64,000 nucleotides of DNA from Prorocentrum cordatum (Eukaryota > Sar > Dinophyceae > Prorocentrales > Prorocentraceae): NCBI GenBank assembly GCA_963575745.1, contig CAUYUJ010020740.1, forward strand, positions 77,501 through 141,500, in the 5' to 3' direction. Shown here one piece after another: positions 2,391 to 50,486 of this stretch (positions are counted from its first letter, which is position 1; each line of letters starts with the position of its first letter). The translations under genes were made by a program, and so were the position numbers. A model generated the notes under the pieces. That model ran no database searches. It worked only from the letters and a program-made list of their open reading frames with translations, and was not told where the DNA came from.

Positions 2391-3704
2391 TTCAGAGCCT
2401 TGGAGGGCCCGAGGAGCCCCAAGACTTGTCTAATATTGCCGCGAGCAGATCCCATGGGCGCCGGCCGGAAGGGGCCCCCGCGGGGGCCCAAGTCTGCCCC
2501 GCGCGCATTGCGTGACTCGGGGGCGCTTTCGGGGCCCACCAGGGTTCCCCCGTGCCCTCGCACCCCGTCGCGGAGGCCACTGGAGGGCCCCATGAGGCCA
2601 AGAGAGCTCCGAAGAGCTAGCTCCCCTCGGGGCCCTATAAGGCGCGTCTGGCCCCCAAAGGCTCCTCCCAGAGCTCCTGGAGGGTCTTGGGAGGGCTCCT
2701 CAAAGGGGCTTCCCTGCTGTCAAGGACGAGGGCCGCCATCTTGACCGCAGGAGGCCCCTCTCTGGGTCTCTTGGGGCCCTCTCGGGGCCCTGCCTCGCAG
2801 GGCCTGTCCAGGTTTGGCGCAGCTAGGTGCGACCGGTTCGGCCTGCGCGAGGTTGGACGCGCTTTCGGGGATTCGCGTGCTCCTGTGGGAGTTGTCGCAT
2901 CAGTCGCGCTGTCGTGACATTGCGTTTCAGCGTCGGGCTGGGGGTCAAACAGCAAAGTGGCGCGTGCCCGCGTTGATCCTGGCCTGTTCGAAATGGCGCG
3001 GGGGGTGGCTTAGAATGGGAGCGCCGAGGACCAATTGTCATTCGCGCGCATGGCCCCGCGACAGAAACCGCGAACGGGGATTGCTTACTGCTTGAGCATC
3101 CGTGCGCTGAGCAATTTTGTGTACCTTGGGCTTGTCGCGAGCTGCGGCGGCCTTGCTTCTGCGGCAACTGACGCCCACTGCGACCCCCCCCAAAGATCCA
3201 ATCAGCGATGCTTTTGGAGGCAAGCGTGCGGATCCACGGTTGGCTAGCGCGCCGCGGCTTGCGCGGGGCGTGCGGTCCACCATGCACCCTTGGCAGCGGC
3301 GCTAGTGCGTGAGCCATTGCACTGTCGTCTACGATTCGGCGCAGACGGTCTCTCGTTCATTACAACGCAGGACAAAGACATGACGTCAGCGAGAACAGCG
3401 GGCGTTGCCAAAACTTTCGGGCAACGGCGTTGTAACGACCACGGGAATGTCCAGCGCAAGCGCGCATCACTCCTGCAACTTACTTTTGGTGCGTATACGT
3501 GCCCAGTTCAAACGTTCACGCAATGCGAAATGCGCGCGCGTCCTCCGTATTCTGATGGTTCCGTACAAGGTTCTGTGCTTGGTAATATAGGTGGCTTGAA
3601 AGGGCAGAACCCTGTTGCGTAATTTTCGTATTTCGGAAAACGCATGTTTGACGGATTTATGGCATTGTTAAATTATTTTGCATATATGGCCCTGTTGATG
3701 AGCC
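2391..3704. other. Intergenic; repeat fragments then unique sequence
   Basis: 2391-2800 holds further GGCCCC/CCAAGAG fragments of the large repeat family. 2800-3704 looks unique, with lower GC toward the right. No frame on either strand resembles a known protein. Confidence 0.45.
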
Positions 3705-12115: not shown

Positions 12116-12153
12116 CTAGAACCTGAGCGCGCGCGAAGCGCGCGTGGTTCTAG
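12116..12153. repeat. Two-part hairpin beside a tetranucleotide block
   Basis: CTAGAACC (12116-12123) pairs with GGTTCTAG (12146-12153). Inside, CGCGCGC (12128-12134) pairs with GCGCGCG (12138-12144) around a GAA loop. The hairpin abuts the start of the GTAT block exactly. Confidence 0.85.
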
Positions 12154-12618
12154 TATGTATGTATGTATGTATGTATGTATGCATGCATGCATGCATGCAT
12201 GCATGTATGTATGTCTGTGTGTGTATGTATGTACGTATATATGTATGTATGTATTTATGTATGTATGTATGTATGTATGTATGTATGTATGTATGTATGT
12301 ATGTATGTATGTATGTATGTATGTATGTGTGTGTATGTATGTATGTATGTATGTATGTATGTATGTATGTATGTATTTATGTATGTATGTATGTATGTAT
12401 GTATGTACGTACGTACGTATGTATGTATGTAATGTATGTATGTATGTATGTATGTATGTATGTATGTATGTATGTATGCATGTATGTATGTATGTATGTA
12501 TGTATGTATGTATGCATGTATGTATGTATGTATGTATGTATGTATGTATGTATGTATGTATGTATGTATGTGCGTGTGCATGTATGTATATATGTTTGTA
12601 TGTATGTATCTACCTATA
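12152..12618. repeat. (GTAT)n tetranucleotide microsatellite
   Basis: About 460 bp of GTAT units with a GCAT sub-block at the left and scattered variants (GTGT, TTAT, GTAC). It gives artefactual Met-Tyr-Val-Cys frames on plus and Ile-His-Thr-Tyr frames on minus. Confidence 0.95.
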
Positions 12619-13740
12619 TGAATGTACAGACGTGTGTATGGGTGCGATCATGCGAATCCTGTTTTCGAAGCCTGTTGTTGCAATATGCCCATCAAGTGCG
12701 ACCAAGCAGGCCTCTCGCGCGCGCAAGTCGATTCAATTCGAACGCCCTTGCGCGATGGCTGGGGAAGGGCACGACCCCATTCAGATAACAACATGCGGAC
12801 CACTCGGGTCCGTCGACCCCGCGCGCATGTCGAAATTGTTCCAAATTGCTTTCCTGAGCGACGCGCGGACTACATCGCCGTCATCGGCGTGACCAGCATG
12901 GGCGCCGTTATTGGCCTTGCCGTCGTCATTGTCAGCATCGTCACCCTCATCGCTACTATCATCACCGCGTCCGCCCTTGTCGACGTCACCATGAGACCGC
13001 GCCCGCCCGAGCCACCGACTCGCACCGAAGTGCCCGCGCGTCAGCGCGGCCTGCGAGACGCGCTGGGAAGCCCCCAGCTGTCAGCGCCACCGCGGCTGCG
13101 TCGGTCTCGCCGGAATTGCTGGCCGCTCTACGACAGAGTTCGTGCGCGCTAGCGCGGCCGCAGCGATGCGCCACCTAGAGCCAAGCAGTCACTCCAATCG
13201 CGCCGCATTGGTTTTGAGAACCAAGTTGCGGGTGGGTGGGTGTGTTGATTGCGCGAGCAGTGGAGTTGACCCTTCCTAGTTCCGCCAAGTACGCTATGCC
13301 GACTCGAACGAATTAGCCACATACATTGCACCACATACGTTGCATTAGATAGATATTGCACCACGTAGAGTGCACTGCGTAGTATGCTAGAACATACAGC
13401 TTGTGGTCCACGCGGGCTAACGTGCTATTCCCTCGGGGTGAAGGGGAAAGAAAGAGAATTAGAGGATGCGGGAACAGTGGGATCTTGTCGGATCGGAGGG
13501 GACTGTTGTTAGCTCCCCCGGATAATCTCACAGTGTCCGTTGCGCAGGTCCGAATGGGGTACGCAGTCATGGTGCGCGCGCGGGCATACGTGGAGTTGCC
13601 CAACGCGGAAGGGTTCGGTTATCGGCAGGCACTTCTTCTCCACCCGCCGGATAACATGGGATACCGCCGAAAAAACAATTTCGAGGTCCACGACAGTTCT
13701 TTGCCGAGGAGACTGCTACGGGGGGGGTGAGAAGTGAAAG
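12619..13740. other. Intergenic, no gene recognised
   Basis: A plus frame at 12622-13152 has one hydrophobic run (about 12870-12980) built from GTCATC-like repeats, so I do not treat it as a gene. 13290-13370 has short repeats of a TTGCACCAC word. Confidence 0.4.
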
Positions 13741-43817: not shown

Positions 43818-44019
43818 CTCCGGCGGTTGATGCGTAAGTCTGCAGGTATCCGCCTGAACAGCTTGTCTGTGGGGGTCCACAGTGCTTCTGAGAGGCCAGG
43901 TAGGGGGCTGCCATGATCTGGAATCGGTGGGGCGCCGTTGTCTCCCAGTGACTCCCGGTGCCTCCCTTTCCCTAGCCCTCTATCCCTATCCCTTGTCTCC
44001 TTCCTGTCCTCATCCCTTA
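43818..44019. other. Left flank of the retrotransposon
   Basis: Pyrimidine-rich toward the right (CCCTCTATCCCTATCCC), into which the element has inserted. No gene. Confidence 0.5.
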
Positions 44020-44036
44020 CCCCTGCCCCTACACCT
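44020..44036 (+). repeat. Left target-site duplication (17 bp)
   Basis: CCCCTGCCCCTACACCT, identical to 50470-50486. It ends directly at the first base of the spliced leader. Confidence 0.85.
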
Positions 44037-44057
44037 CCGTAGCCATTTTGGCTCAAG
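44037..44057 (+). other. Complete dinoflagellate spliced leader at the element's 5' end
   Basis: The 21 bases begin CCGTAGCCATTTT and end GGCTCAAG. With the T at 44036 they equal the 22-nt leader, whose first base is degenerate (A, G or T). In dinoflagellates this leader is added to nuclear mRNAs by trans-splicing and is not normally encoded next to genes. Its presence here, flush with the target-site duplication, marks a cDNA copied from a mature trans-spliced RNA. Confidence 0.95.
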
Positions 44058-44170
44058 ATGCTTGCACTTGGGGGCTTCCGCGCCCTCGTGCCAAAGTGTG
44101 ATAGCTCTGTTTCCCGAGCCAGACAATCCGATTTTTCAGGGGTCCTCCTGCTGGAGGGTTCGCGAGCCCC

Positions 44171-45271
44171 ATGGTCCCACCGCCTCCCGTCTCCGATGTG
44201 CTGCGCGGGCCCAGGACACCGTTCTGGGGATGCAGTTGTGGCGCAGACAAGAACTGGGCGTGCCGAGTCCGCTGCCGCTGCGGCACCGCTGCCCCAGCCC
44301 GCATTGTCGCCGCAGCCAAGACCGCACACGCCAGAGCTGAGAGAGCTGAGAAGGAAGTGCAAGGGAGGAAGCCCGTGCTTGGTGGCCGTCGAGCCACACC
44401 AGCGCCATGGGCACGGGACCAGAACGAGGAGCTCCGCAAGCAGGTGGCCGCGCTCGAGCGCAAGTTGGCCAACACCAGCCTCAAGGACCCGACGCCCGAC
44501 CAGGGTACAGGTGCTGAGAGGCCGAAGGATGCAGGAACTACCCGTGCAGAGATCCTCGCGTCGATCTCTCTCTATGAAAAGTACCTCAAGGAGCCGTCGC
44601 TGCCGCCTAATGTCAAGCAGGCGCACCAGCATGAGATTGAGACCCTCCGTGTGCAGCTCGAGAGTGTCCAGTCTCCTGAGGCTGCCCATCGCAGGGCCCA
44701 GGATAAGCTCAAGAATGCGCAGTCGCAGCTGGTCAAGCTCCAGCGCGAGGCTGAGAAGATGTCCAAGCAAGTTCATGATCTCCAGGCTGCACTGGAGAAT
44801 AAGAGGGCCGCAATTACTTCCAAGGAGGCGGAGATCGACGGCTACAAGAAGTCGTTCGCTGAGACCGCCAAGGCCGTCGCCCCAGAGCGGTCCCTTTTCC
44901 CTGAGTTCAAGTTCGACAAGGATGGGCTCCCCGAGGAGATCCGCACCGCCCTCGAGTCCATCGGAGCGGAGACCACCGCCAAGTTGTTCGCGGACCTCGA
45001 GGGCCAGGTGCGGAAGGCAACCGCACCCGAGCCAGCGGACGCCCCTATGCCACAGCAGCCCGCTGCGAGTCCTGATGAGACTCCTACTCCTGGTGATGGT
45101 GACTCCCCTGGTGGCGGCGTCAAGCGTGACCTCGACCCCACCTTTGAGGAGTCAAAGGAACTGTTCGAGCTCGTCAAAGGGGGCAACCCTGCAGACAGCA
45201 ACGAAGACCTCATGCAGAAGTTCCATGACAAGCTGCTGGCCATGCACCGAGACAAACGGCAGCGTCTTTGA
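44171..45271 (+). CDS. Retrotransposon ORF1 protein (zinc finger, coiled coil)
   Basis: 366 residues. ORF1 proteins of LINEs bind element RNA and act as chaperones in the ribonucleoprotein; this role is inferred. Residues 19-38 form a RanBP2-like zinc finger: Trp19, Cys21, Cys23, Asn28, Cys35, Cys37, with spacing one residue shorter than the usual CxxC at each pair. Residues about 70-110 and 140-235 are rich in Leu, Lys, Glu and Gln with heptad-like spacing, typical of coiled coil. The C-terminal third is Pro/Asp-rich and then acidic/basic. The ATG at 44171 is the first in this frame after a stop at 44102-44104. An earlier ATG at 44058, directly after the leader, opens a different frame. The stop TGA at 45269-45271 is followed by one T and the ATG of ORF2. 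Third positions are GC-rich. Confidence 0.88.
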   Translation: MVPPPPVSDVLRGPRTPFWGCSCGADKNWACRVRCRCGTAAPARIVAAAKTAHARAERAEKEVQGRKPVLGGRRATPAPWARDQNEELRKQVAALERKLANTSLKDPTPDQGTGAERPKDAGTTRAEILASISLYEKYLKEPSLPPNVKQAHQHEIETLRVQLESVQSPEAAHRRAQDKLKNAQSQLVKLQREAEKMSKQVHDLQAALENKRAAITSKEAEIDGYKKSFAETAKAVAPERSLFPEFKFDKDGLPEEIRTALESIGAETTAKLFADLEGQVRKATAPEPADAPMPQQPAASPDETPTPGDGDSPGGGVKRDLDPTFEESKELFELVKGGNPADSNEDLMQKFHDKLLAMHRDKRQRL

Positions 45272-45272
45272 T

Positions 45273-48200
45273 ATGCCTGTATTAGTCAGCAGCTTGCCTG
45301 TTCATCACGGCCAAGTGCGGCCACCACCGAATGCTGACCCTAGAAGCCAGTTCTTCGTGGAGTCCTTCAATGCCAACCGTGGCATCCGTACGCTGAAGGA
45401 AAAGATACAGGCTTCGGCAGCGACCATCTTCGTCGCGCAAGAAGTTGGATTCCATGATGATGATAATGATGATTTTGTTGCTTGGGCAGGTCGTCGTGGG
45501 TGGAAGTGTCTTACCAGCCCTGGCGCTAAGTCCAAGGGAACAACGCCCACGCAAGGTGTTGCTGTACTTGCTAGGGATCACGTTGGACTTCGGGGACCAG
45601 GTTGCGCCCACGCTGTCCTTCACCATCGCCGCGCACTGCACGCTGTTGTGCACCTTCCTGGACGGCCACCGTTGCACATCGTCTGTTTCTACTTGGTGGT
45701 CAACCAGGGCATCAAGGGCAGGAATGCGCGTATCCTGGCTCAGATCGGCACGAGGGTTTCCGGGATTGCCGACCCCGTCGTCCTGGTTGGCGACTGGAAT
45801 GCCACGCCGAGGGACATCGAGGAGTCAGGCTTCCCGAGAGTAGCCAAGATGGTACTTGTGGCCCCGTCCCTGCCCACATGCATTACACCCGAGTCTAGCC
45901 GTGCGATTGATTTCTTTGCTGTCAACATTGTTGCTAAGAGGTTGCTCGAGTCCGTCCACGTGGACACCTCATGGCCGAAGCGTCCTCACCGTACTATTTC
46001 ACTGGGCCTCTCTACGGAAGGCCTAAGGCAGCAGTACATGGTATACACGGTGGCAAAGATGTGTGGGACCGAACGTTTCATTGGTCCTGCACGAGAAGGC
46101 TCTGACTGGCAGTGCCCCGCAGCGATGGCTGAGGCGGCCGTCGATGCGAGTCGCCAGAAGCCTGTTCGTGAAGCATGGTGCATTTTGTCGCGAGCGTGGG
46201 CCACCTTCGCCCATGCCGCCGAGAAGGAGGTCAGTGCAGTCACTGGCCAGTGTACGTCCAGCAGCGCCTCGTGGGGAGCGCCGCCCAAAGCTAGATGGGT
46301 TGACTACAATCACCGCCCCGAGACAGTTGCTGAAGCCAAGGCAATCTCTCGCGGCTGGACATGGCTAACGCAGTCCCTGGACAATTTGTGCGAGCTCATG
46401 AGGCCCAAGCACGCCGCGGTACGTTGTTTGGAAGCCGAGCTGGATGTGTTTTCTTCCGCTGAGCATTTCGGGCAGGGTCTATGCGCACGTTTGGATGCCA
46501 GTGTTCTTGAGGCGCGGGTCGCTGTGGGTAATGCCTTACTTAGTGCAGCTGGAGCCCAAGGCCCGCCACCAGCACCGTCCACAGCACATTTACGCTCTGA
46601 AGTGGCCCCTGCGGCCGCTACCGTGGTTGGTCCCTCAGGCCAGGAAGGATTGCAAGTTGATGGCCTGTCCCCTGATCAGTTTGACGAGCCTGACATCGAC
46701 CAGGACGATTTCTTTGGCATCAATGCGCAGCTCGGGGGCCAGACTGGAACCGTGACTCAGGACGATGATTTCGAGACCTGCGTCGCCCCTCGGATCCACC
46801 GTGGCAGCCACCGAGCTGCTCAAATTCTTGAGAAGTACCGTCGAGACATTGCAGCTGATGCACGCAAGGCCGAGCTGGATGAAGTAAAGGATGATCGCCA
46901 ACGGTGGCAGGACTGGTGCGACGCGGCATCGTCCAATGGTGCACGAGGACTTCACCGCGCTACCCGAGTTCCCAATGCACCTCACCCTACGGTAGTTCGT
47001 ACTGCTGGAGGGCTTACGGCACATCCTCATGATATCGCCGAGGCCGGGGTTCGCAAGTATGAGAAGCTCTGGCATGCTAGCCGGGTTCCGAGCCAAGCCT
47101 GGACGCCTGACAGGTCGGCAATGGACAGGGCCAGCGCGGACATGATCCGCGACGTGGCCAACAGCTTCCCGCACGCCACAACGGCCAGTCTTGATCGAGT
47201 GCATCCTCGTCACTTCGGGCTACTTCCTCGCGCTGCGCTCGACACCGTGGCAGCGCTGTTCGAGGCGTGCGAACGGATTGGTCGATTGCCTCGCCAGTTA
47301 TGTTTCATTGTCATGCCCATGCTTGCGAAGCCTGACCAGGGCCACCGTCTGATAATATTGTACTCGGGCATGTACCGTGTCTGGCAGAGGCTTCGTCGCC
47401 GCGACCTCGATGGCCTTCACCAGCAGCTGCGCCGCCCGTACTGGGGCGCCCTGGCAGGCCGTAGTGCATTCAACCTGTCTTGGCTGCAGGCTGCGCGCAG
47501 TGAGGCTGAGGCCAGCCAGAACAATTATAGCCTTTTGATTCTGATGGACTACAGCAAGTTCTATGAGGGCATCCCGCTGGAGGTATTACGTGGTCGCCTC
47601 CTTGCCTGCGGCATGCCCACGCCGATTCTCAAGTTAATTTTCAACACGTGGCAGTCCCCGCGTATCATTCGCCTGGGCCTGCACCACAGTTGCACAGTCT
47701 TGTTCGCCACTTTCGGGCCACCAGCAGGCTGTGCATCTTCTGATGTTGCGGTTCGAGCCTTCACGATCACAGAGTACGACCAGTTTGTGCGCCGCAACCG
47801 CCCGTCGGTCGATTTCATGAGCTACATCGACGACACTGGGGTCCACGTGAGCGGCCATGACCGAGACATCGTTGCAGGCGTCGCGATCCAAGCGGGTGTG
47901 CAGTTCCAAGCAGTTTCGAGACGACTTCAGGCCACTCTCAATGATAAGGTCGCCGTCGTGGCCAGTGATAGTGCCCCTGGCATGGAGGTGACCACGAAGC
48001 TCGGCCTCGCCAAAGATATGTCCAAGCCAGCGGCCGCCTACCTCGGCGCGGACTTCGCCTGCGGACGGCGACGGGCGCAAGCCCGCACCGCTGGCAAGAG
48101 GAAGATGCGTTTGAGGAAGTCCTCCCAGCGCCTGGCCAAGGCGGCCAAGCACAAGTCCATGAGGAAGCCCGACGAGAGGCTCGGAAGAGTCTACACCACT

Positions 48201-50316
48201 GGAATCAAGATGGCAGCTCACTACGGGTCGAGGTCAACGGCGTCGACGACCAGGAGTTGCTCGCCATCCGTCGCCAGGCCTTGTCCTACCTGGCGCCCGC
48301 GACGAGGGGTGCGAGCTTGCGCGCCAAGCTGGCCTTGCACGGTGAGCCCGCGGCGCGTGAGGCCATGGCGCCCGCGCTCCAGTGGTCTAAGCATGCTGTG
48401 GCTTTCCCGTCTGATGCACTCGTAGGCCTAACTGAATTAGAACGTATGTGGGACCGCGTTTTTTCCCCAGGCTCAGTCGGATGCGTCCTGGGCCCAAACT
48501 CGCGGACCGATCTCCAGGATCCCGCTTTGCCTTGCTCGCGTAAGGTGGAAGCCTGTGTCGGCCACCGAGTGGATCGACCAGGATGGCATCACCATCCAGC
48601 TCACGCAACGCTCCCCTGCGATGCTAGGTAAAATGTTCAGCACCGCGTTCCAGGCTGCCCATGAGAAGCCGCTTGGGGAGAAGTGGGGGTTTGCTGAAGG
48701 AGTTAGGGCCAACCTGGACGTGGTCAGGTCTTGCCTCAGGTCCAAGACTAAGTATAACAAGTACCAGAAATATTTAGTTCAAGCTGCTGTCTGCGACTGT
48801 TTGTGGACAGAACAGCTTGCACATGACAATGGCTATGTCACTCTCCGAGCTGGCCGATGTGAATGCGGCGAGCCTGACACCACCCATCATCGGCTTTTTT
48901 GTTGCCAGCTCCCAGCTGTAGCCCAGGCCCGCGAGGAGGCGGAAGTGCCTTTGACTTTCCTGGACGAAGCTCGGGAGGACCCTGGCAGTTTACTCCATTT
49001 GAAAGGTGTCGTCTCGGTGTTCCCAGGGGACATCCCTCTTGTCAAAGGGGCCCCCGAGGCCATGGTCCTGGACGGTCTTGGGGAGGCTGTTCCCGATCTG
49101 GAGCCTGAGAAGTCTGTGCAATTTGTTGGTCATAGCGATAACTTACATATCGCGGTGGACGGCAGTAGCACCATGCCGGTTTTGTCTTGTTTTCAGCGTG
49201 CTGCGTATGCGGTAGTTCTGTGTGACCCCCAGGCCGAGGCTACCTTTTCGGTAGTGCGCGGCACTGTGCCTGTAGTTTTTCCGCAGTCCCCCGCGATGGC
49301 CGAAAATTTCTCGATCGCTGTCGCCTGCCAGATCGCCGATCGCAGTCCCTACATGCATGCCGATTGTAAAGCAGCAGTAAGTCAGGCCCTCCTTCCTGAG
49401 CACGAACAGCTTCGTGCGAGCAAGGTGTTCGCTGGCGTATCGGCCTTCGCCCGTTCCCTCAGTGGACACTGCCGCATCAGGTCCATCCAGCATGTCAAAA
49501 GCCCATCGAAGCGAGGGCGAGATATATAATTTGCCGCTTGTGGAGCGGGCGCCCGCGAAAGGTAACCGTGCTGCTGATCTCCACGCCAAGGAGGCTCTTA
49601 AGATGCACGCTCCCATCGGACCCGAGGCAGCCAATCGCCTAGAGTCTGAAGTAGAGACCGCCAGGCATTTTGTCAAACTTGCAGCTAGTGTGCTACCAGC
49701 CTTCCAGTCCCGAGCGAAGCGCGTCAGGCCCTTCGCCCGTCACCGTTCTGTAAAGTCAGCTCCTGGGTGGCACGAGTGGGAGAGTGGATTGCTTGGTATG
49801 CAGTGCAAGCATTGTCTGGTGGTCGCCCATGAGGGTACCCCCCAGGAGGCTCTGGGTTGCTCTGGGGCCCCCGATTTCGTTCGTCAGGTCGTCCGCCGTT
49901 CCCTGGGGCACCTGATTGTTGGTGTGGCCTCTCACGAGATCCACCCCAGAGCCCCAGAGCCATCGCAAGCCAAGTTGAGTAGGCTTCAGTTTTTGTGCGT
50001 TCGTTGCGGCTGCTGGGCCCAGAGGTGCTCCCGTAATCTTGACAAGGAGTGCCAACGACCCTCTAGGAAGGGACGCGAGGTACTAAGTAAGTACTCGCGA
50101 GGCCTGGGCCCCAGCAGTCGTGTCCGTCAATTGATTGATAGAGCTGCTGCGGTCACTGCAATGTCTGTGGTTCCCAAGCCGCGGTCTAAGACTCTTGCCT
50201 GTACGTCTGTTCCCTCGGCCCATTCGAGTGCCCCCACCGTCCCTGAGCACGAGAGACGGATGGCCGCCCTTGCTGAGCGAGTGCGAGCCAAGGAGGCCCT
50301 CCAGGCTGAGAAGTAG
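45273..50316 (+). CDS. Retrotransposon ORF2 polyprotein (endonuclease, RT, RNase H), frameshifted
   Basis: About 1,680 codons if three single-base shifts are allowed for. Residues 30-245 are an endonuclease/exonuclease/phosphatase domain with Asn33, Glu57 (AQEVG), Asp174 and Asn176 (GDWNATP), Asp213 (AIDFF) and His239 (RPHR). The RT spans roughly 590-900: DRVHPRHFGLLP, LIILYSGMYRVWQR, motif A LILMDYSKFYE (Asp759), motif B GPPAGC (815-820), and motif C YIDD (851-854), all intact. Then come a Cys/His cluster (CECGEPDTTHHRLFCC, about 48862-48909), and RNase H with Asp (49158), Glu (49302), Asp (49362) and Asp (49576). A terminal Cys finger (LCVRCGCWAQRCS, about 49995-50040) ends it. Frame changes: one base lost in GGG at 48225-48227, one gained near 48459-48471, one gained in AAAA at 49497-49500. 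The start codon sits one base after the ORF1 stop, suggesting coupled re-initiation. Confidence 0.9.
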
Positions 50317-50469
50317 TTTTGGGTCGTGGCACCCCGTCGCGGGCCCTGGTCAGAGTGTGGGGAGCTCTATCCTCCAGGGTAACAAATCCCTCTCCGAAGG
50401 GTGCCACTTCCCCCCCTTTGTTTGTTTTAGTCTTGCGAGACTCTTCCCCTCGGGGCTGTCCTAACCTAG
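50317..50469 (+). other. 3' untranslated region of the retrotransposon
   Basis: Follows the ORF2 TAG (50314-50316) and ends at the right target-site duplication. No poly(A) or simple-repeat tail, so reverse transcription presumably began at the 3' terminus itself. Confidence 0.7.
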
Positions 50470-50486
50470 CCCCTGCCCCTACACCT
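50470..50486 (+). repeat. Right target-site duplication (17 bp)
   Basis: CCCCTGCCCCTACACCT, a perfect match to 44020-44036. The flanks beyond the two copies differ, as expected of a target duplication. Confidence 0.85.

Follow-up and report, generated by a model that had tools for sequence, protein, structure and literature searches.

SLACS, CRE and CZAR, together with NeSL, are long interspersed nuclear elements (LINEs) that insert into spliced leader (SL) RNA genes. In trypanosomatids, L1Tc is described, in passages of one report, as having its own 5′ promoter, Pr77, with Pr77 transcripts given as unspliced and Pr77 reporter mRNAs as lacking the SL (PMC4748587). In dinoflagellates, the type of element that moves retrogenes is called unknown in the relevant portion of another report, which favours long terminal repeat (LTR) elements (PMC6050394). 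Our literature search found no account of SL-headed LINEs, most subscription journals lying outside its reach. Here we describe an autonomous LINE from the bloom-forming alga Prorocentrum cordatum that begins with the complete dinoflagellate SL and belongs to a family in which every locus examined begins in the same way. The element lies in a stretch of 64,000 nucleotides with a GC content of 60.5% (GenBank assembly GCA_963575745.1, contig CAUYUJ010020740.1, positions 77,501 to 141,500 of the forward strand), referred to below as the window. We consider it probable that the host trans-splices the RNA of this LINE, that reverse transcription runs to the 5′ end of that RNA, and that the product is inserted behind a tract able to act as a new splice acceptor.

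The 22-nt dinoflagellate SL, TCCGTAGCCATTTTGGCTCAAG, is matched exactly at 44036–44057, where it forms the 5′ end of a LINE spanning 44036–50469 and is followed directly by ATGCTTGCA. It is the sole match in the window at up to three mismatches (none in 100 shuffles), the next best match to the SL 21-mer having six. The 17-mer CCCCTGCCCCTACACCT occurs exactly at both 44020–44036 and 50470–50486, flanking the LINE. Taken alone, this C-rich 17-mer is weak evidence: the window holds one further match at up to three mismatches, with three, while shuffled windows gave a mean of 0.34 such matches and at least three in 2 of 100 shuffles. What is decisive is the position of the duplication: it abuts the element on both sides, and other copies establish where that element starts and stops. 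The features of the locus, including its two open reading frames (ORFs) and the apurinic/apyrimidinic (AP)-type endonuclease and reverse transcriptase (RT) of ORF2, are as follows.

43962..44019, plus strand: pyrimidine-rich target tract preceding the insertion, with 85% pyrimidine over the 75 nt up to and including 44036
44020..44035, plus strand: left target-site duplication, 16 bp (17 bp counting the T at 44036), an exact repeat of 50470–50485/86
44036..44057, plus strand: complete 22-nt SL, the 5′ end of the element; exact match, with the same start in 40/40 loci
44058..44170, plus strand: 5′ untranslated stretch with an ATG directly after the SL, as in 37/38 tallied copies
44171..45271, plus strand: ORF1, 366 aa; sub-threshold Pfam matches only, many to coiled-coil families; shared differences mostly at third codon positions
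45273..48425, plus strand: first part of ORF2, with AP-type endonuclease (~45363–45833) and RT (~47325–47939); Pfam matches above cut-off, third-position excess
48215..50316, plus strand: C-terminal part of ORF2, with RNase H-like motifs (by eye) and then a Cys-rich stretch, read across three frames
50317..50469, plus strand: 3′ untranslated region ending in CCTAACCTAG, a (CCTAA)n tail without poly(A), from the sequence and other copies
50470..50485, plus strand: right target-site duplication (T at 50486 optional), an exact repeat of the left one

Other copies were sought in the genome (4,128,499,153 bases, or 4.13 Gb, in 21,875 contigs) by a query of 1,264 bases taken from the element's 5′ end, SL included; the best 40 of 308 candidates were scored, so that the result, at least 43 matches at at least 40 loci on 40 contigs, is a lower bound. 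The 5′ ends were inspected at all 40 loci (the window, 20 loci fetched at 8.4–8.6 kb and 19 at 281–651 bases), that of L025 being added separately. L030 was left out of counts as a duplicate of L029, leaving 39 distinct loci, and tallies on 38 copies also leave out L025/L124. The SL stands at base 1 in 40/40 of these loci (39 distinct), and in none of the 40 does element sequence continue upstream of it; copies running collinearly upstream of 44037, which the original prediction had named as a refutation, were thus not seen at these loci. The upstream flanks of the window copy and the 20 long loci have nothing in common, apart from the identical pair L029/L030. An exact 25-mer starting after the SL, and therefore free of the bias of an SL-containing query, occurs at 24 loci genome-wide; all 24 are headed by the SL and all fall within the 40. 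The copies form three groups headed by the same SL: group A (the window and 24 loci) at 91–98% identity over the query; group B (L033–L039, seven loci), which matches from base 98 and differs over most of the first ~150 nt past the SL; and group C (L043–L050, eight loci) at 71–74% identity. L025 at first appeared to be a 5′-truncated copy, a reading rejected when its SL-bearing 5′ end was found beyond an insert of ~1.2 kb at element base 65 (L124, G000:C1069 ~221.4–222.6 kb). An empty paralogue of the window site, which would have spoken against the original prediction had it lacked a single 17-mer, was not found among 57 matches to the 5′ flank, in which its own locus alone reached the junction (best 40 of 841 candidates, simple repeats skipped). 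There is strong support for the view that the element's RNA bore the SL and that copying proceeded as far as the 5′ end of this RNA.

These copies also bear on the first base of the leader. Of 38 tallied copies, 34 have T immediately before CCGTAG (C in two, G in one, A in one), as does L025/L124, outside the tally. Duplications of 13–17 bp were read in six copies (the window, L014, L015, L019, L026 and L025/L124), the count being confined to copies whose flanks are not pure (CCT)n; most others lie in simple repeats and are uninformative, and cases such as the 12 bp of L021 were left out. In L015, L019, L026 and L025/L124 the duplication stops one base short of CCGTAG, leaving an intervening base that is T each time, while the 13-bp duplication of L014 stops two bases (CT) before it; in L025/L124 a clean 16-bp duplication is followed by T in the upstream copy and by C in the downstream copy. 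The leader most likely starts with the T at 44036. Because duplications elsewhere end before this T, the leader is 22 nt long, which leaves 16 bp for the window duplication and one T assignable to either; the T corresponds to the D position of the published SL, and the leader is therefore complete. The original prediction had placed a complete leader at 44037–44057 against a perfect 17-bp duplication: the leader is exact and complete and the repeat is exact at both ends, but the leader likely starts one base earlier, and the duplication is better read as 16 bp and a shared T.

The domain content of ORF2 places the element among LINEs. Between the stop codon of ORF1 and the ATG of ORF2 there is a single base. 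In the window copy, RVT_1 is matched at 2e-07 (31.4 bits against a cut-off of 29.6) and Exo_endo_phos, upstream of the RT in the same ORF, at 6.8e-07 (29.7 bits against 24.5). The coding frame of this ORF2 breaks near 48.2, 48.54 and 49.5 kb (three shifts), so the copy is not intact; in one of the 20 other long-fetched copies ORF2 is open over 1,645 aa, with RVT_1 at 25.9 bits and Exo_endo_phos at 19.4 bits, each below cut-off. The motif order of an RNase H (I-group) domain was read by eye across the window frames, with no Pfam match in the window or the other copy. The RT, the AP-type endonuclease, duplications of variable length and a fixed 3′ end are all present, and the element is an autonomous LINE, or non-LTR retrotransposon, of the AP endonuclease (APE) type. 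A LINE targeting SL RNA genes, in the manner of SLACS, CRE and NeSL, was ruled out: a tract lies upstream of the SL, an ATG rather than an intron-start GT follows it (ATG in 37/38), and an APE-type endonuclease is present instead of the restriction-like endonuclease of those elements. No Rfam family matched in the window at the gathering score. Protein searches with ORF2 and with an RT region, each covering 8,000 candidates, gave no match at E ≤ 0.001; with a shorter RT piece as query, four short proteins were matched, 39–69% identical and without 5′ ends. Scans of IMG/VR with ORF1 and ORF2 found no relatives there, nor did a scan for the SL-to-ATG pattern, and a search of PDB found no relatives.

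The family has a characteristic target and tail, neither of which figured in the original prediction. A pyrimidine content of 85% or more over the 40 nt upstream is found in 36 of 38 copies (the exceptions being L014 at 0.75 and L027 at 0.70), against a window background of 1.4% of positions, and at least four CCT-type units lie within 80 nt upstream in 30 of 38, against 77 of 6,392 window positions. For the window copy itself, 85% pyrimidine over 75 nt is reached by 0.76% of plus-strand segments of the same size. The target is mostly (CCT)n, its pyrimidine-rich strand is the sense strand, and a single orientation holds across family copies. At the other end, a CCTAAC-type tail followed by target sequence was seen in 19/19 of the 3′ ends of group A that could be read (the window copy and all long loci but two, L013 and L030, whose 3′ ends run into gaps), with one to three tail units in the 18 ends parsed by script and no poly(A) within 60 nt after any of the 19. 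The same CCTAA-type tail was present in 4/4 stretches of group B and in 1/4 of group C, where three stretches showed no such motif. These ends bear on the idea that the copies are ordinary processed retrocopies, derived from a LINE-like host gene whose RNA, in the manner of any dinoflagellate mRNA, received the SL and a poly(A) tail and was then retroposed by the enzyme of another element. SL-tagged retrogenes are indeed described as common in dinoflagellates in parts of two reports (PMC6050394; PMC12014239), but a family of 39 or more distinct copies sharing a fixed 3′ end, with a CCTAA-type tail and no poly(A), a strong family-specific target, an endonuclease and RT of their own and coding ancestors make this explanation very unlikely. 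Assignment as an SL-tagged host retrogene was likewise rejected, since the genomic 5′ SL is there but signs of a polyadenylated mRNA origin are not.

Sequence divergence points to separate insertions from once-coding lineages. In a tree of 20 distinct copies, terminal branches make up 0.417 of a total length of 0.488, each amounting to 1.3–4.2%, and several nested clades have support of 1.0; the distance to the nearest relative is 2.8–5.7%, the identical pair L029/L030 apart. Differences shared by at least two copies fall mainly at third codon positions, in ORF1 (57 of 78, 44337–45236) and in ORF2 (172 of 324, 45537–48236), and their favoured phase tracks the frame changes of the window copy. 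Ancestral lineages were therefore coding, and most sampled copies have decayed since; private changes are far less skewed, with 58 at third positions of ORF1 against 44 and 50 at the others. Among private changes in 19 aligned copies, A>G and T>C outnumber C>T and G>A, with no higher rate of change at CpG sites than elsewhere. LINEs of Symbiodiniaceae have been described, in the portion of PMC8045281 consulted, as old and diverged, to be set against the 2.8–5.7% between nearest relatives here. L022 and L023 share 778 identical nt of 3′ flank, yet have different 5′ flanks and diverged bodies, pointing to rearrangement or misassembly. That the whole pattern is an artefact or chance, through cDNA contamination, misassembly or a fortuitous repeat, we regard as practically negligible: two pairs alone are suspicious, L022/L023 and L029/L030 (identical including 1,200 nt of 5′ flank), as against 40 loci on as many contigs, with differing flanks and terminal branches of the length given. 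The star-like shape of the tree would suit another possibility, namely that all SL-headed copies are themselves dead and descend from a single SL-less source locus, or from a few, with its own promoter and acceptor. No SL-less source was found, all 24 loci of the exact 25-mer being SL-headed, although a diverged source would escape that search and the assembly may be incomplete; the fully supported nested clades also speak against it, and groups B and C would each require an unseen master of their own. We judge such masters improbable, and favour trans-splicing of the RNA of the LINE copies themselves.

SLs are found far beyond this family. The exact SL 21-mer has 14,218 copies genome-wide, the reversed control none; 3,860 (27%) stand behind 14 pure pyrimidines (window background 1.0% of positions, both strands), and 1,202 adjoin the exact 15-nt relic expected from splicing onto a stored SL at the AG of position 7 (AG7). 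A sample comprising the first 60 of 100 listed sites, non-random in that 31 lie on contigs C1–C3 and L119–L121 form one repeated array, had a pyrimidine tract before the SL at 27 sites, a purine tract at 12 and neither at 21, some of these being (TA)n or CA-rich; T precedes the SL in 55, an exact relic follows in six and a near relic in three. One SL-headed site with CA-rich sequence upstream, L098/L102 (G000:C26:180962-184962), gave tblastn matches to ORF2 of 1.3e-06 (RT part) and 7e-06 (endonuclease part) and Pfam matches, both under cut-off, to RVT_1 (1.1e-05) and Exo_endo_phos (0.0013). It encodes a distant LINE-like relative, so that SL heads are not limited to one LINE family. Four other 4-kb SL-site stretches had no match to ORF1 or ORF2, and L067/L081 (with and without relic; 86% identical over 43 nt) is not claimed as a LINE, the ORFs tried having no Pfam RT match.

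Further sites carrying SLs were noted in passing. At L073, L076, L092, L094, L110 and L111 the SL stands behind purine (AGG)n tracts, with recurrent downstream sequence among some sites (L092/L094, L061/L096); the (AGG)n-side sites probably represent further SL-headed repeat families with the opposite tract orientation. L119–L121 (G000:C39 ~19.9, 25.1 and 28.2 kb) have near-identical sequence on both sides of the SL, as a tandem array of a host gene or repeat. A 7.2-kb IMG/VR contig (L001:2746-2766 and 2893-2913, minus strand) carries two exact SLs 147 bp apart in AT-rich surroundings, with a GC-richer, ATG-led stretch close after one of them. At L003:4334-4354 (minus strand), filed as a Dehalococcoidia metagenome-assembled genome, the SL is followed by GT and adjoins what we take to be the end of a large-subunit rRNA gene, perhaps an SL RNA gene linked to ribosomal DNA on a contaminant alveolate contig. 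In the window itself, 12144–12892 holds long overlapping ORFs with repeated MYVC-type units on a simple-repeat stretch and is unlikely to be a gene.

Within the family, the stored SLs have changed little. There are 12 substitutions in 798 SL positions of 38 copies, 28 of which are unchanged; for the 19 group A copies with aligned 5′ ends, two substitutions were observed against 4.8 expected from private changes, and stored SLs thus look free to decay neutrally after insertion, or are at least compatible with this. No group has a group-wide SL change. Four substitution types occur twice, and T to G at position 12 alone recurs inside a single group, in L046 and L050 of group C; this variant, ATGTTGG, also stands in a Polarella transcript quoted in PMC7245778. 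The AG of positions 6–7 is altered in L015, L018 and L033, too few cases for use. The bases next to the SL, at 44058–44078 (element bases 22–42), show no changes in 19 copies where five are expected, unlike the following 21 bases, and we offer no explanation for this. The main rival to trans-splicing is that the SL is an encoded mimic, a permanent part of the element kept for translation, with transcription starting at its first base, the tract serving as core promoter and no trans-splicing taking place. The family shows no relics and hence no sign of AG7 splicing, one Amphidinium gene has a 21/22 SL match exactly at its RNA 5′ end, for which the authors, in the section concerned, leave both options open (PMC2488372), and mimicry has been proposed, in part of another report, for a dinoflagellate RNA virus with a 5′ SL (PMC10235124). 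However, the same SL on groups ~26% apart demands constraint on all 21 bases in the active lineage; the pace at which stored SLs decay fits neutrality, SLs adjoining a relic are common in the genome, and the SL heads other repeat families with different upstream tracts. We therefore think mimicry unlikely, and trans-splicing by the host remains our preferred reading.

If the host does trans-splice the LINE RNA, the element's mRNA would have the order SL, ORF1, ORF2, (CCUAA)n. Target priming would take place in a pyrimidine-rich tract, (CCT)n/(AGG)n or another, where the (AGG)n primer strand could pair with the CCU-rich 3′ end of the RNA (CCUAACCU), and copying as far as the cap at the RNA 5′ end would leave the whole 22-nt SL as the 5′ end of the DNA, beside a duplication of 13–17 bp. 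With the pyrimidines of the target on the sense strand, each new copy comes to lie behind a polypyrimidine tract, which together with the AGs of the stored SL would make a plausible trans-splice acceptor. Read-through transcription and trans-splicing could then yield fresh SL-capped genomic RNA without an inherited promoter. The suggestion in the original prediction that the SL is regained in each cycle gains indirect support from the same SL on three groups down to 71–74% identity; the pyrimidine-tract target, the (CCTAA)n tail and the other SL-headed families are additions to that prediction.

Several observations weigh against this account. Relic SLs are absent from the family (0/38, and none in L124), while the published splicing site is the first AG (SL position 7), use of which leaves a relic (PMC3229502). 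Re-splicing, if any, must therefore occur at the last AG (position 22), or RNAs spliced at AG7 must be immobile; renewal of the SL would need the putative use of that last AG. The acceptor in Amphidinium is described, in a section of PMC2488372, as having no simple consensus beyond AG. The SL-headed insertions behind purine tracts (12/60) and behind neither kind of tract (21/60) show that a pyrimidine tract is not needed for SL-headed insertions generally. Private changes retain a mild third-position excess in ORF2 (236 against 170 and 184), and part of the terminal branches may predate insertion. Finally, L046 and L050 could share their T to G change by descent, by chance or through a variant donor.

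In every round, a LINE has to bring along or recover its promoter and its full 5′ end. In the SL-headed family, host RNA processing appears to supply the 5′ end, and target choice could supply the splice acceptor. More tentatively, and with rather less than even confidence, we propose that P. cordatum harbours a class of LINEs without a 5′ end or promoter of their own, for which SL trans-splicing defines the start of the unit, tract targeting builds an acceptor at each site, and splicing at the last AG replaces the SL exactly and leaves no relics; their enzymes may seed the ~14,000 SL copies and the retrogenes. The SL-headed LINE is in this respect a concrete candidate for the machinery behind dinoflagellate mRNA recycling.

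Compared with known systems, the element resembles APE-type LINEs in its ORF1, its ORF2 with AP endonuclease and RT, its target duplications and its short-repeat tail, and differs from them in having a host trans-spliced leader as its 5′ end and a pyrimidine-tract target with fixed orientation. Waldo and similar microsatellite-targeting LINEs share a simple-repeat target with this family and are not known to carry an SL; we know of no link in such elements between target and RNA processing. SLACS, CRE, CZAR and NeSL share a physical link to SL sequence, whereas in the window element the SL is its own 5′ end, with a tract before it and an ATG after it. L1Tc/ingi are likewise LINEs inside a host with SL trans-splicing, but the unspliced RNA described for L1Tc's own promoter is the opposite solution to an SL-headed element. 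DinoRNAV, unlike the window LINE, is an RNA virus not known to have a reverse transcriptase of its own. With some of its endogenous copies it offers another selfish unit bearing or adjoining the dinoflagellate SL, for which LINE-mediated integration has been proposed in part of PMC10235124. The SL-tagged retrogenes of dinoflagellates (Slamovits and Keeling, as cited in passages of PMC3229502 and PMC6050394) also have a genomic SL derived from retroposed trans-spliced RNA, and relic SLs are known among them; those are host genes, whereas the SL-tagged unit described here is an autonomous LINE.

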